From positions 1-30,371 of the IMG/VR virus record IMGVR_UViG_3300005582_000063: a DNA stretch of 30,371 nucleotides; one strand, written 5' to 3'. This DNA is from a virus. Numbering within the stretch: position 1 is the stretch's first letter; every line of letters starts with the position of its first letter. Positions 3 through 30,187 of this stretch are shown here, piece after piece. The position numbers and the translations under genes are program-made. Under the pieces are notes generated by a model. It did no database searches and was not told the origin of the DNA. It worked only from the letters and a program-made list of their open reading frames with translations.

Positions 3-1175
3 ACAGCTGGCAGCCCAATGGACAACATGAAAGATGTTGCCCAAGCGTTCGAAAAGCGTATCCACGCTCTACGTCGCGTTAATGGTGGAGATGGAGAACA
101 ACATATTGTTGCATCTATCGCTACCCAATACCCAGAAGATCGCACCCTTACTCAGGATGCAGAATCAAACTGGGCAAAAGTCCAAGCCGTAACAGGCCCA
201 GAAGCACTTGTTGCATCTGGTGGACACTCAACCCCATTCGAAGTTAAGTACGACATCTTCGGTATTGGAACAACAGCTCGTCCACTTCGTGATGCGCTAC
301 CTAAGTTCCAAGCTGATCGTGGCGGTATTCGCTTCGTAACACCACCAGTTCTTAGCTCATACGCTAACGCTGTTGGTATTTGGACCGCAGCAAACGACTC
401 AGCAGAAACACCAAACCCAGCTGCAAAGCTTAGTTTGACTGTAACCGCTGCAGGAGAAAACACTGTTGCAACCGATGCTGTAACTCTACAGTTGCAGTTC
501 GGTAACTTGATGACTCGTGCTTATCCAGAACTAATCGCTCGCCACAATGAGCTTGGTTTGATTCAGCACGCTCGTGAAGCAGAAGGACAAATTTTGACTC
601 GCCTAACCGCTTTGTCAACAGCTGTAACTTCAACTTCACTAATCGGTGTAGCTCGTGACTTCCTAGTACAACTAGGTCGTGCAGCAGCTAACTACCGTGG
701 TCGTCATCGCCTAGAGGCAGATGCTCCACTTCGCGTCATTGCTCCAGCATGGATCAAGGATGCAATGGTGGCAGATCTTGCTATCGCAGCACCTGGTGAC
801 AACACCCTTAATGCCGCTGCAGAGATCGATGGTTACATCGCTTCTCGCAACATCAACATCACCTACCACATCGATGATTTCACCGATTCACAAGGTGCAG
901 CTGCAATGAACGAGTTCGCAGACACATTCGTCTGGTACATGTTCGCAGAAGGAACATTCTTGTTCCTTGATGGCGGAACCTTGGATCTCGGAGTTATCCG
1001 TGATTCCACCCTTGTTGGAACCAACGACTACAAGATGTTCGTTGAAACCTTCGAAGGCGTTGCAAAGGTTGGCGTTGAGTCACTCAAGGTCACATCAACC
1101 ATCTCTGTTAACGGTGTAGCAGCAGCTCTCCGTGATACAACAGGTGGCGCAACAGCTGCGGCAATCGAATACTAA
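3..1175 (+). CDS. Major capsid protein (hexamer-type), 5' end outside window
   Basis: Main shell subunit of the phage head. The frame is open to the first base of the window and the first ATG (18) has no ribosome binding site before it, so the true start lies upstream and the N-terminus is missing. About 390 residues are visible. The stretch with RGGIRFVTPP, the LQFGNL/HAREAE region and the YRGRHRLEADAPLRVIAPAW region resemble actinophage HK97-fold capsid proteins that are often paired with a second capsid-like gene. All 15 Phe codons are TTC, as expected for a very highly expressed gene in this AT-rich genome. The next gene follows after 70 nt and also looks capsid-related. The capsid assignment is strong; the hexamer label is inference from the pairing and the codon bias. 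Confidence 0.85.
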   Translation, partial: TAGSPMDNMKDVAQAFEKRIHALRRVNGGDGEQHIVASIATQYPEDRTLTQDAESNWAKVQAVTGPEALVASGGHSTPFEVKYDIFGIGTTARPLRDALPKFQADRGGIRFVTPPVLSSYANAVGIWTAANDSAETPNPAAKLSLTVTAAGENTVATDAVTLQLQFGNLMTRAYPELIARHNELGLIQHAREAEGQILTRLTALSTAVTSTSLIGVARDFLVQLGRAAANYRGRHRLEADAPLRVIAPAWIKDAMVADLAIAAPGDNTLNAAAEIDGYIASRNINITYHIDDFTDSQGAAAMNEFADTFVWYMFAEGTFLFLDGGTLDLGVIRDSTLVGTNDYKMFVETFEGVAKVGVESLKVTSTISVNGVAAALRDTTGGATAAAIEY

Positions 1176-1203
1176 AATTCGTTAGCCAAAGTAATTAAGT
1201 CAG

Positions 1204-1320
1204 AACCCGAGCAGACACTTAGAAAGAAACAGGAGATAACTAGAAATGGCGTTTAGAGGAATCTATCCAGCACCAGATTTGGTTCATGCACCTTGCGGAC
1301 TTCTAAGTGTCGCTCGGGTT
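1204..1320 (+). promoter_or_regulatory. 20-bp long-range RNA stem enclosing a ribosome binding site and start codon
   Basis: Bases 1204-1224 (start aacccgagc) pair with 1301-1320 (end gctcgggtt). There are 20 Watson-Crick pairs and one bulged A at 1213. The 76-nt loop (1225-1300) holds the AGGAG at 1231-1235 and the ATG at 1246. The left arm is intergenic; the right arm lies in codons for GLLSVARV of the downstream protein. Such a stem could limit ribosome loading or be an RNase III processing site. The pairing is seen directly; the function is inferred. Confidence 0.7.
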
Positions 1321-2124
1321 ATGACGCACACAGCAGCGAATTACGATGAGCGTTGGGTTCGTGGCTTTAGTTACGAATTTGATTCACAACCAGAAGTAGA
1401 AGTATTTACAGTAAATGATGCAGCTGCTAGTGCAGTTGTAGGAACATCAAATCTTCCTCAGTTTAAAGAATACGATCCTTTCTTTATTCAAGTAACAGAT
1501 ACCCGTTCATATTTTGGTATTAATGGTGAGGATCGTTTTGCAATTACTAGAAAGCAGTTAGAAGCAGCAACACAAAAGGCAATCGAGCTTGAACTTTGGG
1601 AAGGTAAAGCTGCAATTGCTGAAACAAACGGGAATGACTTTTTAAGGGAAACAGGAGTAGCAACCGTTGTAAATAGCGGTGCATTAGCTCCAGCAACAGC
1701 ACTTATGCTGTTAGAACAAGCGATTTCTTCATCACCAGCAGGAACAAACGGAGTCATTCATATGACCCGTGATGTTGCGTCGATCTTAGGATCACGTCTC
1801 ATCTATTCACCAGCTGATGGAGGAAAAACAGGTAAGGCAATGACACGCTTAGGTACAGAAGTAGTCATTGGTTCTGGTTACACAGGTGCTGGTCGTCTTA
1901 GCGACGCCAACACCACTGCGTCTGCTTCAAATAAGTGGATGTTTGCAACTGGTCCTGTTGACGTACACCTAAGCAAAATTGAGATTGTGAACGAAAATCT
2001 CGGTCAAGGTGCAACTGTAAGTACAAACACTAATGACTTAACAGTCAAAGCAGTTCGTGCAGCAGCGGTATACTTTGATCCAAGCATTTTCTACACAATT
2101 CGTCTAGCACTACCAACAACCTAG
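1246..2124 (+). CDS. Capsid-like protein, probable pentamer/minor capsid subunit
   Basis: A 292-residue protein directly downstream of the major capsid gene. It starts at ATG 1246, ten bases after AGGAG. The N-terminal GLLSVARV and RWVRGF segments, the central VIHMTRDVAS, and the LGTEVVIGSGYTGAG...FATGPVDVHLSKIEIV region near residues 200-250 resemble the second capsid-type protein of some actinophages, called major capsid pentamer protein in phage annotation practice. Of its 13 Phe codons, 11 are TTT and 2 TTC, the opposite of the preceding gene, which fits a lower-copy protein. Its start region sits inside a 20-bp RNA stem. A head decoration or other minor capsid role is the alternative. 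Presence in the virion is likely; the exact position in the shell is inference. Confidence 0.6.
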   Translation: MAFRGIYPAPDLVHAPCGLLSVARVMTHTAANYDERWVRGFSYEFDSQPEVEVFTVNDAAASAVVGTSNLPQFKEYDPFFIQVTDTRSYFGINGEDRFAITRKQLEAATQKAIELELWEGKAAIAETNGNDFLRETGVATVVNSGALAPATALMLLEQAISSSPAGTNGVIHMTRDVASILGSRLIYSPADGGKTGKAMTRLGTEVVIGSGYTGAGRLSDANTTASASNKWMFATGPVDVHLSKIEIVNENLGQGATVSTNTNDLTVKAVRAAAVYFDPSIFYTIRLALPTT

Positions 2125-2151: not shown

Positions 2152-3198
2152 ATGGCCACTCAGGACTATGCGGCTAGCGTCCAAGGTGTGGCGATCCGAG
2201 TCACCAGACTGGACGCCGCTGGAACCCTGCTCAATGGTGCAGGAGACAGCTACACAACCTCGGCGTTCCTCCGCACATCTTTCACCCCAGAATATGAAGA
2301 GGGTGACGAAATCGTTGAGAAGTCAGCAGACGGCACTGTATGCGTATCATACAAAGCCCCTGACACACTTAAGCGAATCACAATGGAACTCGCAATTTGC
2401 GAACCAGATACAGAACTTTCACAACTAATCTCTGGCGGTTTGTTGCTACGCAAGAACTTCGGTTCTTTCGCATCACCAAGCAATAAGTCAGTAGGTTGGG
2501 CCGCACCTTCCGTCGGCGATGATCCTTCAGGCAACGGCGTTGCCCTTGAAGTTTGGTCATTTGCTGTTGCAGATGGTCGTCGTGCCGCAACTAACCCATA
2601 CTTCCACTGGGTATTCCCATACGCAAAGCTTCGCCAAAGCGGAGACCGTGTAATTGAAAACGGAATGCTTGCAACCACATTTGAAGGTTACGGACTCGGA
2701 AACGTAACATTCGGTTCTGGTCTAGATGGTCGTTGGGAGTATCCAGTAGCTTCTGAGCGTTCATACTCATATGCACGCACAGACTGGGCACCTTCAGGTC
2801 TTAAAGGCTTCTATCGTTGGTTTAACAACTCCACAAAGGTTGTAAACAACAAAGCCTTAACATCTAACATTGCAACTCTTACTACAAGCACAGCACATGG
2901 CTATGAAGTAGGACAGAGCGTAACTGTGAGCGGTGTAGATTCTACATTCAACGGTACTTTCACAATTAGCGCTGTTCCAAGCACAACTACATTCCGCTAT
3001 GCCAAGACCGCTGGCGATGTTGCATCAGCAGCAGTAAGCCCAGTCGGTTCAGTACTTCGTAACCGTGGATACCTTGCAGTGACAGATTTTACCTCACAAG
3101 GGTCAACATCTTCATACAACGTTCCAGGTAACGAAGATTACAACGCAGATCTACCAGTTGACTTCATCATTGCGTCAACAGAGGATCCAAGCGCTTAA
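2152..3198 (+). CDS. Major tail protein (tail tube subunit) with inserted beta repeat
   Basis: A 348-residue tail tube subunit, preceded by AAAGGAG. The N-terminal part (about 1-200) has the look of an actinophage major tail protein: a charged EEGDEIVEKSADG loop, TLKRITMELAICEPDTEL, and NPYFHWVFPYAKLRQSGDRVIENG. Residues about 236-285 form one copy of the repeat seen in two downstream tail proteins (TLTTSTAHGYEVGQ, then FNGTFTISAVPSTTTFRYAK). It is probably a surface domain displayed along the tail. The C-terminus (DYNADLPVDFIIAST) resumes the tube-like sequence. Phe codons are 12 TTC to 4 TTT, consistent with high expression. A terminator-like hairpin follows 11 bases after the stop codon. 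Confidence 0.8.
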   Translation: MATQDYAASVQGVAIRVTRLDAAGTLLNGAGDSYTTSAFLRTSFTPEYEEGDEIVEKSADGTVCVSYKAPDTLKRITMELAICEPDTELSQLISGGLLLRKNFGSFASPSNKSVGWAAPSVGDDPSGNGVALEVWSFAVADGRRAATNPYFHWVFPYAKLRQSGDRVIENGMLATTFEGYGLGNVTFGSGLDGRWEYPVASERSYSYARTDWAPSGLKGFYRWFNNSTKVVNNKALTSNIATLTTSTAHGYEVGQSVTVSGVDSTFNGTFTISAVPSTTTFRYAKTAGDVASAAVSPVGSVLRNRGYLAVTDFTSQGSTSSYNVPGNEDYNADLPVDFIIASTEDPSA

Positions 3199-3209
3199 TT
3201 AATTTAGGA

Positions 3210-3259
3210 AAGGCGGGCATCGAGCCGATGGTTTTCAAACTACGGTTTGTGCCCGCCTT
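3210..3259 (+). terminator. Terminator-like hairpin after the tail tube gene
   Basis: A perfect 10-bp GC-rich stem, aaggcgggca (3210-3219) with tgcccgcctt (3250-3259). The 30-nt loop can form a weak inner helix. Only a short T-rich run (cttctta) follows, and the loop is long for a classical intrinsic terminator, so it may work partially or stabilise the upstream mRNA. The position, right after the highly expressed capsid and tube genes and before the neck genes, fits a step-down in expression. Confidence 0.6.
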
Positions 3260-3283
3260 CTTACTTAGAGACGAGGTGAAAGT

Positions 3284-24466: not shown

Positions 24467-24482
24467 AGCTGGTTTTGCTAGG

Positions 24483-24516
24483 TTGCTACCCAACGATTTT
24501 TGTTGGGTAGCAATTT
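24483..24516 (+). terminator. Intrinsic terminator of the replication operon
   Basis: A perfect 12-bp stem, ttgctacccaac (24483-24494) with gttgggtagcaa (24502-24513), a 7-nt loop (gattttt), and TTT directly after the stem. It starts 16 nt after the ssDNA-binding protein stop. The T-run is short, but the stem is strong. Transcription of the glycosyltransferase gene at 24539 would then need read-through or its own promoter. Confidence 0.85.
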
Positions 24517-24538
24517 AGTAATCCAAGAGAGAGAAGAA

Positions 24539-27629: not shown

Positions 27630-28154
27630 GTGTGGAAACCAGCGGAAAACCTTAATTGGCAGTCAGATGCCACCTGTGCAAAGCCTTCTAATAGGTACGC
27701 CTTAGATTGGTTCTTTTCTAAAGACTTTAAAGAAAAGTATGCAGCCAAGAATATGTGCTTTACCTGCCCTGTGCGCTCAGAGTGTCTACAGTGGGCTTTA
27801 GAGCATCGGCAGATTTGGGGTATTTGGGGTGGTAGAGATGAAGTTGATATTCGTAGAGCTTTATCAGTTTCGTATAACGGTGAAGAAACAAGACGTCGCA
27901 GATTTCCTAACTGTCCTTACTGCACAGCTAGACCTTCAAAACTAGAAACTTCTATTGAGCAACTTCCTAATGGAGGACGATGGACAACAGCAAAGGTTGT
28001 TACATGCACAGAATGTGGTTTTGCTTGGAGAAGTCGTACTAGTGCAAATGCGGTTGAAGCTTATAAAGCAGATCGTTTAGAAAAAACTAGTAAAAAAAGT
28101 AAATCTAAAAAATTTTCTTCGTCCAAACTTGTAAACCCTGCTCAAGAACAGTAA
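27630..28154 (+). CDS. WhiB-like protein fused to a C-terminal zinc ribbon
   Basis: A 174-residue protein that starts at GTG 27630. The Wbl domain covers about residues 1-85: DATC (C16), then CFTCPVRSEC (C43, C46, C52) and GIWGG, with basic residues after (DIRRAL). It is followed by a second metal site: CPYC at about 94-97 and CTEC near 125-128, FAWRSRT after it, a four-Cys zinc ribbon not found in simple Wbl proteins. The tail is Lys/Ser-rich (KTSKKSKSKKFSSSK), likely a nucleic-acid contact. It lacks an upstream Shine-Dalgarno motif and is probably leaderless. The last 50 bases overlap the end of a convergent gene on the other strand. Confidence 0.85.
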   Translation: MWKPAENLNWQSDATCAKPSNRYALDWFFSKDFKEKYAAKNMCFTCPVRSECLQWALEHRQIWGIWGGRDEVDIRRALSVSYNGEETRRRRFPNCPYCTARPSKLETSIEQLPNGGRWTTAKVVTCTECGFAWRSRTSANAVEAYKADRLEKTSKKSKSKKFSSSKLVNPAQEQ

Positions 28155-28680
28155 CTTTATTTGCATAAGGAATTAAAAATGCATCAATTCCAGTTTTAGG
28201 CTGATCCATTATAGGTAAAGAAGCTCCCCACTTATAATCATCAAAGGCAAGTATTCCTCCGTTGTTGAGGCAAGAATACCCATCTAACCCATCTCTAAGA
28301 GCCCAGATTGCATGATGATCCGCATCTACATAGACAAACTCATATTTTTTGTCGTTTGACTTAAAAAATTCTTTAGTTGTCATCTTCTTTTTTATTAGCT
28401 GACCTGAGTCAAGAAAAGGTCTTAGTTTTTGATCATAAACTTCTTCTACACTTTTCCAGTTCATTTCCTCATGTGCTTCTTCTTCAGAGCCTTCCCAAGT
28501 GTCAACGTCTGTCAGAGTTGATTCTGGGTGGGTAAGAACGTTGTCAAAAAGCCAAGCAGAAGCATCGCCTGTGTATGCCCCTAACTGAAGAAAATCTACC
28601 TTTACATCTTTATACTTAGGTAAAAATTTGGAAAAGTTATGGATTGCTCCACCCTCAATAAACCAATTGGGATATGTCAT
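28105..28680 (-). CDS. Class I SAM-dependent methyltransferase (Methyltransf_24-like)
   Basis: A 191-residue protein on the minus strand. VDFLQLGAYTGDASAWLFDN is SAM motif I. Further on, LTDVDTWEGSEEEAHEE carries the acidic residue after strand 2. FVYVDADHHAIWALRDGLDG, then LNNGGILAFDDYKW, is the strand 4-5 region typical of small-molecule and sugar methyltransferases of this family rather than DNA methylases (no NPPY or DPPY). It is coupled by ATGA to the upstream GT2 gene, so methylation of the sugar that enzyme transfers is a plausible shared task. Its 3' end overlaps the convergent wbl-zinc ribbon gene by 50 bp. Confidence 0.75.
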   Translation of the reverse strand: MTYPNWFIEGGAIHNFSKFLPKYKDVKVDFLQLGAYTGDASAWLFDNVLTHPESTLTDVDTWEGSEEEAHEEMNWKSVEEVYDQKLRPFLDSGQLIKKKMTTKEFFKSNDKKYEFVYVDADHHAIWALRDGLDGYSCLNNGGILAFDDYKWGASLPIMDQPKTGIDAFLIPYANKVTVLEQGLQVWTKKIF

Positions 28681-29738
28681 GCTTTTTGCTCACAGAACGC
28701 TAAGTTATTAGCAAGTCTTTCCTTGTGCTCTGGAGTGGCAATTTCTAAAGCGTTTCTAGCATGAACAACTGCATCTTGATATCTTCCTAAATTGTAAGCA
28801 GCAATTGCTGCCATATCATGCGGTGTATAGCCCCAAGCCTCTGCCTCGCAGAGATACTCCATAGGCTTAACAGTAATTGCTAGAGCTTGCATTGCTATGT
28901 CATAGCATTCTTCCCACTTACCAATTGAGTAGTAGTGCTGAGCGAGATCAACATAGGCTTCTCTGCGTTCTGGAGCTTCCTTTATTGCCATGGTAAACCA
29001 CAGCTCTGCATCTTCTTTAGATATTTTTCCAATAAAACGCATTGATGCTGAACGCTCTGGTGCCCACCTTGCGGTGTGTAGCTGTAGGTGACGTTTAAAT
29101 TCATTTTTTGCTTCATCAAGTCTGTTGTAAAAATACAGTTCTCTCGCATAATAGAAAGCGTTTCTATCATCATATGGATCTTCTTCAACAGAAATTTTTA
29201 AAAGATCTAGATATTGTCCTCGTGATTTTGTATTATCTGCGTGGTGCTCCATAGTTGCTTGAGTCCAGTACTGAACCTCTTGCATGCGGTCAGGAACTAA
29301 AACTTCATGTACTGGATGCTTCCAACGGTATCCGTGACGAGCATGAATTTTATCTCCACCAAAGGTAAGTCCAGGAGTTCCGTCTTCATTCCAATTCCAA
29401 GTATAGTTATATCTAGGACGAGTTGCTCCTGAGTCAAAAGCTTTTTGAAGCTCTGCTTTCCATCCCGGCAACATGATTTCATCCATATCAAGGGGAATAC
29501 AGTAGTCAATATCAGCTGGAAGTAGTCCTAAAGAAACATTTCTTGCCTGATCAAAGCGCCAAGGTCTTACACAAATAGACACAACATTAATCCCTAAGGC
29601 AAGAGCTTTTTCAACAGTCTTATCTGTTGATCCTGTGTCGGCTATAAGTAGGTAGTCTGCCTCATCTTTTACAGAGTTGTACCAAGTCTCAACAAATTTT
29701 TCTTCATTGAGGGCTATTGTGTAGACTGCTACTTTCAT
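28677..29738 (-). CDS. GT2-family glycosyltransferase with C-terminal TPR region
   Basis: A 353-residue protein on the minus strand; AGAGGAAAATAA precedes the start. The N-terminal GT-A domain shows YTIALNEEKFVETW, LLIADTGSTDKTVE and the metal-binding IPLDMDEIM (D84, D86). RWKHPVHEVL and ATMEHHAD follow, as in bacterial and phage GT2 enzymes acting on surface glycans. Residues about 190-345 are TPR-like helices (REAYVDLAQHYYSIGKWEEC, MAAIAAYNLGRYQDAVVHAR). No signal peptide or membrane segment is seen, so it is cytoplasmic. It starts by ATGA overlap with the upstream Cys-rich gene and ends by ATGA overlap with the methyltransferase. The target glycan is unknown; virion or host envelope are options. 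Confidence 0.88.
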   Translation of the reverse strand: MKVAVYTIALNEEKFVETWYNSVKDEADYLLIADTGSTDKTVEKALALGINVVSICVRPWRFDQARNVSLGLLPADIDYCIPLDMDEIMLPGWKAELQKAFDSGATRPRYNYTWNWNEDGTPGLTFGGDKIHARHGYRWKHPVHEVLVPDRMQEVQYWTQATMEHHADNTKSRGQYLDLLKISVEEDPYDDRNAFYYARELYFYNRLDEAKNEFKRHLQLHTARWAPERSASMRFIGKISKEDAELWFTMAIKEAPERREAYVDLAQHYYSIGKWEECYDIAMQALAITVKPMEYLCEAEAWGYTPHDMAAIAAYNLGRYQDAVVHARNALEIATPEHKERLANNLAFCEQKA

Positions 29739-29974
29739 TTATTTTCCTCTTCCGTGTATGCTTGCCATTTATTTTCAGGACAAAAAGCCCAAACTAGAGC
29801 GCATTTAAGATTCATAAAACACATACATTTTTTACATTGTTTTGTTTTTTTAATAAAAAACTCGCACCCTTTACAGATTTCATAGCGCTCACTGTACACC
29901 TCTTCTGGTACATGTTTTCTATTAGGATTCAAAAGATCCCACGGCATAGCGTTTCTTCTTTTTTTGTCAGTCAT
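29735..29974 (-). CDS. Cys-rich metal-binding protein (DUF6171-like)
   Basis: 79 residues on the minus strand, preceded by AGGGAAAATTT. It has six or more cysteines in RYEICKGCEF, QCKKCMCFMNLKCAL and AFCPENKW, a layout seen in small phage proteins of the DUF6171 type (CxxC, CxxCxCFM, Cys-Pro-x-x-KW). It most likely binds zinc. It is translated together with the GT2 gene (ATGA overlap), and such proteins often sit next to glycosyltransferase or sugar genes in phages, but no function is known to me. Confidence 0.65.
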   Translation of the reverse strand: MTDKKRRNAMPWDLLNPNRKHVPEEVYSERYEICKGCEFFIKKTKQCKKCMCFMNLKCALVWAFCPENKWQAYTEEENK

Positions 29975-29983
29975 AAATTTTCC

Positions 29984-30187
29984 CTATATGTTATTTATAA
30001 TATCTTTAGAGCCACTATATAGGGGAACTGCGTCTTTTAGAGAAACCTCTCTTTTGGTTACATATCCCCCATCTTTATCTAACTTTTCGTCAGCAGCTTC
30101 TCTGTTTTCAGCTAGAACTTGAACAACCATTAGAACCTCGTATGAATAGCATGAGGTTTCTTTAGCGTTTGATACGTCTTTTGTCAT
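29984..30187 (-). CDS. Small protein of unknown function, first gene of the minus-strand block
   Basis: 67 residues with a good AGGAGACTTT directly before the ATG. The middle (YEVLMVVQVLAENREAADEKLDKD) reads as a beta strand and helix as in small phage proteins with a ferredoxin-like fold, and the end is polar. The strong ribosome binding site and its place nine bases upstream of the Cys-rich gene support a real gene. I do not recognise the family. Confidence 0.6.
   Translation of the reverse strand: MTKDVSNAKETSCYSYEVLMVVQVLAENREAADEKLDKDGGYVTKREVSLKDAVPLYSGSKDIINNI

Follow-up and report, generated by a model that had tools for sequence, protein, structure and literature searches.

A covarying RNA stem encloses the translation start of a second capsid gene in actinobacterial phages and may limit its synthesis

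Large phage heads of the HK97 type need hexamer subunits by the hundred but about 55 subunits at their vertices. How this ratio is set in phages that have separate hexamer and pentamer proteins is, to our knowledge, largely unexplored. At the locus described here a hexamer gene and a probable pentamer gene lie side by side in one operon with a highly expressed tail-tube gene behind them, and a conserved RNA element exactly at the junction of the two capsid genes makes the question testable by reporter. What is this element, and what could it do? We address these questions in a window of 30,371 nucleotides (the whole stretch of DNA analysed, IMG/VR virus record IMGVR_UViG_3300005582_000063) and its relatives. 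The relevant features are as follows.

3..1175, plus strand: major capsid (hexamer) protein gene, whose 5' part lies beyond the window; matches phrog_777 (major head protein) at E 2.1e-73; cultured relatives are annotated major capsid hexamer protein.
1199..1224, plus strand: left arm of the stem, non-coding, 24 nt past the capsid stop codon; contains a bulge (A1213) and a mismatch (G1203), and covaries with the right arm.
1225..1300, plus strand: loop of 76 nt (from the fold) with the gene-2 translation start and weaker inner pairing.
1231..1235, plus strand: gene-2 Shine-Dalgarno (SD) sequence AGGAG, which the minimum-energy fold pairs in part with CCUU 1291-1294; its bases have a mean unpaired probability of 0.34.
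1246..1248, plus strand: gene-2 start codon (ATG), the same start in relatives.
1246..2124, plus strand: gene 2, indicated to encode a second HK97-fold capsid protein of 292 aa, the probable vertex (pentamer) subunit; phrog_779, E 1.4e-22; AlphaFold model; annotated relatives.
1301..1325, plus strand: right arm of the stem, within gene 2, encoding LLSVARVM (codons 19-27); across the family it spans +54 to +79, counted from the start codon.
2152..3198, plus strand: major tail protein gene of the same operon; phrog_792, E 2.4e-21; no such stem at its start and weaker predicted start structure.

An earlier note on this DNA, made from its letters alone, had described pairing between 1204-1224 and 1301-1320, with 20 bp in 21 positions and one bulge. 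That description proved exact: A1204-C1212 pairs with G1312-U1320 over 9 bp and G1214-A1224 with U1301-C1311 over 11 bp, A1213 being the sole bulge across the 21 left-arm positions, and four further pairs (GUCA 1199-1202 with UGAC 1322-1325) extend the base of the stem to 1199/1325 beneath a G1203/A1321 mismatch. The isolated stem has an energy of -33.8 kcal/mol. Folding of 1176-1340, a check proposed in the same note, gives -57.4 kcal/mol (z = -5.8), a value equaled by none of 200 shuffles. The assertion that such a match is not expected by chance also holds, since the site ranks first when helices of this geometry are scored at 2516 placements throughout the window (score 52; next unrelated site 41, median 20); shuffles, placements and the control gene starts described below together rule out chance or base composition as the origin of the stem. 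The SD sequence and the AUG lie, as had been noted, in the loop, where they are enclosed by the long stem and not paired with it; the SD alone is partly paired, through the weaker inner helix with CCUU. The right arm is indeed coding sequence of gene 2. No Rfam family was found at gathering score in the window or in 14 related loci.

The note had also taken the gene at 1246 for a second capsid gene, and its product does fall in PHROG 779. An AlphaFold model of modest confidence (pLDDT 62.8, pTM 0.64) has HK97-fold phage, GTA and encapsulin shells as its top matches in the PDB (best E 2.1e-7; 236 at E <= 0.001). These came from fold comparison, whereas searching PDB chains with a sequence profile from either capsid alignment gave no match. 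The model and the profile match indicate that the product is a second capsid protein with the HK97 fold. In the Mycobacterium phages Freya and RawrgerThat the PHROG 779 gene that follows the hexamer gene carries the annotation "major capsid pentamer protein", and from the annotation of relatives together with the fold we conclude that the gene-2 product is probably the vertex subunit.

Other structures and genes were seen in the window. A very strong hairpin at 3205-3264 (-36 kcal/mol; GGCGGGCA...TGCCCGCC, then TTCTTA) directly follows the major tail protein gene and may close the capsid/tail operon. A 20-nt inverted repeat with a 7-nt loop at 24475-24521 overlaps a possible TTG start at 24500 and may be either a terminator or a hairpin at the start site. 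Minus-strand open frames lie at the right end of the window (28105-30187), including a glycosyltransferase with TPR-like repeats at 28677-29738.

Is the stem a peculiarity of one phage? Relatives were gathered through the gene-2 protein (47 loci), the capsid proteins of the window's and other groups, and cultured phages; most loci are public metagenomic contigs, some of them fragmentary, and start codons were chosen by rule, a few being doubtful (L100, L128). Taken all together, the gene-2 proteins have no conserved stretch on which a profile search could be built. Our first metric, the plain duplex energy of the whole flanks, split gene-2 starts from controls poorly, and a core-helix score was used instead. 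By this measure, 70 of 132 non-redundant capsid/gene-2 junctions score at least 36 (the lowest 38.5, the next value below the threshold 32), and in all 70 the stem encloses the gene-2 SD and start codon. Only 5 of 301 control gene starts in the same loci reach 36; all five have several gaps and three come from the GC-rich Streptomyces phage TurkishDelight. Carriers include the Microbacterium phages Pumpernickel, A3Wally, Cece, Big4 and Zooman, the Arthrobacter phages Racecar, Talia1610 and Atuin, and the Gordonia phages GMA2, Sixama and Mareelih, and the arm letters are unrelated between these three sets. In Gordonia phage Phendrix the helix is shifted inward so that the SD and start codon are themselves paired; it scores below the threshold but was grouped with the stem class in trees. 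Over 55 lineages the stem averages 24 pairs (range 14-34), and its position is fixed relative to the start codon, with the left arm at about -42 to -12 and the right arm at +54 to +79, even in Gordonia phages with an unrelated protein N-terminus. These data reveal a covarying mRNA structure that is missing from Rfam and occurs in cultured phages of Microbacterium, Arthrobacter and Gordonia. We found no report of it in the open-licence literature; an earlier description may exist elsewhere.

Several metagenomic contigs have assembly gaps or ends at the left arm, as if the structure hindered sequencing or assembly: one contig has a 28-base gap there (between L012 and L080), and another ends 25 nt before the ATG (L014). 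At L015, on the same contig as L078, about 110 bases are missing near the gene-2 start, namely the last capsid codons and the entire left arm, and the capsid frame ends 2 nt before the gene-2 ATG. This gap could be an assembly error at the inverted repeat or a natural deletion, and could then serve as a natural test of the stem.

The note had staked the stem on pairing and compensatory change in related phages, and both were found. In 55 lineages differing by more than about 20% over the junction, the median pairing score is 48.5 for a phage's own arms and 21.5 for arms swapped between phages, and own pairing beats swapped pairing in 99-100% of comparisons in which the right arms are about 10-50% identical. 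In a plain MAFFT alignment of 30 sequences, 97.9% of cells in the inner 11 pairs are paired; these pairs have 65 two-sided changes against 19.4 (sd 3.7) in shuffles and at most 7 in versions slid out of register, and a covariation of 0.52 against at most 0.115 when slid. The Arthrobacter-type set behaves similarly, with 92.9% of cells paired over 17 pairs and two-sided changes in 8 of the 17 against 2.2 in shuffles. Shuffles of this type do not take relatedness away, but the slid versions retain it and still fail. The right arm shows no drop in synonymous variation (0.287, versus 0.294 elsewhere): changes in the arms are compensated, not prevented. Protein constraint alone is ruled out, since substitutions in the coding arm are matched by changes in the non-coding left arm. 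The pattern of substitutions identifies the stem as an RNA structure under selection, its letters rewritten and its pairing kept.

Matching arms of any sequence would also arise at the level of DNA if template switching (quasipalindrome correction) kept an inverted repeat alike with no RNA function. We regard this as extremely unlikely. G-U pairs outnumber A-C mismatches 44 to 24 (p = 0.01), a strand-specific bias of the kind expected of RNA; the repeat sits at a fixed position at one gene start and is rare at the 301 others; and its arms are about 76 nt apart. Alternatively, the stem could be an operator at which a phage protein, for example a capsid protein, represses its own translation. 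Autogenous repression is common for phage genes, as T4 examples illustrate (PMC3014915), and here stem and start site occur together. The arm letters, however, are entirely different from one phage group to another, and apart from the coding constraint and the SD the loops have no sequence in common, which makes an operator very unlikely.

Almost all of the junctions without the stem turned out to be structured as well. In these 59 (class B, the stem carriers being class A) a strong GC-rich hairpin lies between the capsid stop codon and gene 2; it is local and leaves the start site outside. The intergenic sequence by itself folds with a median energy of -31.5 kcal/mol in the hairpin class (all <= -24.7) and -4.7 kcal/mol in stem carriers (none <= -12), and stem and local hairpin never occur together at one junction. 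Nearly all stem-less junctions belong to one gene-2 clade. Class changes nine times on the capsid-protein tree and once on the gene-2 tree (first 35 residues excluded), which argues that the element travels with gene 2 while the capsid gene recombines. In two pairs of loci (L036/L097 and L094/L090) a near-identical hexamer protein is joined to pentamer genes of different class; in the first pair the capsid end and a few bases past the stop are shared and divergence begins at the structure. The sequences of both pairs indicate recombination at the capsid stop codon. With more distant actinophages as the root, the hairpin class falls within the stem class, with moderate support at deeper forks. 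A strong local hairpin is present at the junction of these outgroups too, Mycobacterium cluster B among them.

Because the class B hairpin does not cover the start site, a shared purpose of the two forms may instead lie in mRNA decay or termination. The element would then protect the 3' end of the capsid message or stop some transcription, leaving more capsid mRNA than gene-2 mRNA, with the class B hairpin in the same role. The perfect exclusivity of stem and hairpin at the same junction is consistent with this, as are the strong local hairpins of more distant phages. The class A stem, however, does not resemble a terminator (a scan found no intrinsic terminator at the capsid/gene-2 junction, where the loop is 76 nt and there is no U run), and translation of gene 2 would unwind it each time. 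Such a role would also leave both the enclosure of the start site and the high expression of the downstream tail gene unexplained, and we think it unlikely.

What, then, would enclosure do to the start? For stem carriers, the predicted cost of opening positions -18 to +15 is 14.3 kcal/mol in the full structure and 8.8 kcal/mol before the right arm is transcribed; the corresponding values for the hairpin class are 9.2 and 8.1 kcal/mol. The SD is on average 0.33 unpaired with the stem and 0.49 without the right arm. The effect is smaller in the window, where opening costs 11.7 kcal/mol against 10.5 without the right arm and the SD is 0.34 against 0.40 unpaired; here, and in the closest relatives, the stem raises the computed cost by only about 1 kcal/mol. 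In the strict sense, caging of the translation start is modest in the phage for which it was proposed, where an elongation barrier or another effect may matter more, and is clearer in the predictions for the family. A crude initiation estimate that combines SD pairing and opening, with the hexamer start assigned by rule and uncertain, is worst for gene 2 in the stem class (6.1, versus 3.4 for the hexamer and 0.8 for the tail gene). Gene 2 is also worst in the hairpin class (3.6, versus 1.9 and -0.3), mainly from a weaker SD. The capsid gene to gene-2 gap is 70 nt in the window (class A median 57, range 37-76). Termination-reinitiation coupling is a property of adjacent genes that overlap or have a very short gap (PMC10666635), and with a 70-nt gap coupling from the capsid gene is unlikely.

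These estimates lead us to favor, as the better-than-even explanation, that the stem limits translation initiation of the vertex (pentamer) protein, leaving it much scarcer than the upstream hexamer and downstream tail-tube proteins made from the same transcript. Of the roles suggested earlier, lowered translation of the second capsid protein is the best supported, its effect being one that we infer from predicted initiation. We envision that the SD and start codon would be open until about 80 nt of coding sequence had been transcribed, so that one or a few ribosomes could load. The right arm, at codons 19-27, would then pair with the left arm, which lies immediately 5' of the SD. Once closed, the stem, usually extended inward by SD pairing, would raise the cost of opening the start region and would place a helix of more than 20 bp about 13 codons ahead of any newly initiated ribosome, making further initiations rare. 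Against such a brake, the 76-nt loop is large enough that it could in principle admit a 30S subunit.

Two other suggestions of the note fare less well. Timing, if it were by a promoter within the left arm in the style of T4 gene e, has no support: a scan of 1176-1246 for sigma-70-like sites found none, and there is no conserved arm sequence. An RNase III site that separates two mRNAs is possible but improbable. Cleavage of a 20-24 bp helix would split the capsid mRNA from the downstream mRNA and remove the gene-2 start, which would also lower gene 2. The near-perfect double strand of about two helical turns suits this reading, the 20 bp plus 4 of the window reaching the roughly 20 bp expected of such a site, as does the freedom of the arms to vary in sequence around a mean of 24 pairs (14-34). 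One arm is coding, however, so that a cut there would behead gene 2; a plain spacer between genes could be a local hairpin, as in class B; some members have only 17-18 bp; and it is the distance from the start codon that is conserved, also in members with an unrelated N-terminus.

A braking stem in one class and a local hairpin in the other raise a broader and more tentative possibility, which we rate somewhat below an even chance: that RNA at the hexamer/pentamer junction sets the shell subunit ratio across an actinobacterial phage superfamily. It would do so in two interchangeable, mutually exclusive forms, the start-enclosing stem and the local post-stop hairpin. The form would move together with the pentamer gene, the two making up one module able to recombine onto different hexamer genes.

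How does the junction stem compare with known systems? The Mycobacterium cluster B junction (Freya, L265; RawrgerThat, L267) shares with the window the gene order, phrog_777 followed by phrog_779, and a strong junction RNA hairpin; the cluster B hairpin, however, is a local one that leaves the start codon outside. RNase III sites in late mRNAs of the T7 type are local intergenic hairpins with roughly two turns of double-stranded RNA between or near genes. The length of double strand is similar here, but the junction stem encloses a start codon and has one of its arms in coding sequence. In the RNA phage MS2, control of the maturation-protein and lysis starts relies on long-distance pairing that limits a low-copy protein, and ribosomes may load only on nascent RNA. 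MS2 has an RNA genome and the genes concerned are different, whereas the stem described here lies in the late operon of a DNA phage and is conserved purely as structure. Inhibitory structures at translation starts are also known for T4 genes e, soc, 49 and I-TevI, where the SD and/or the AUG is in the helix and a late promoter within its left strand releases the gene (PMC3014915). Like the junction stem, these are phage mRNA helices of upstream sequence with the start region that lower initiation, an effect that is predicted in our case. Unlike them, the junction stem has no sigma-70-like promoter site and no shared arm sequence, encloses the start in a large loop with its right arm at codons 19-27, and is found between two capsid genes in over 50 lineages.
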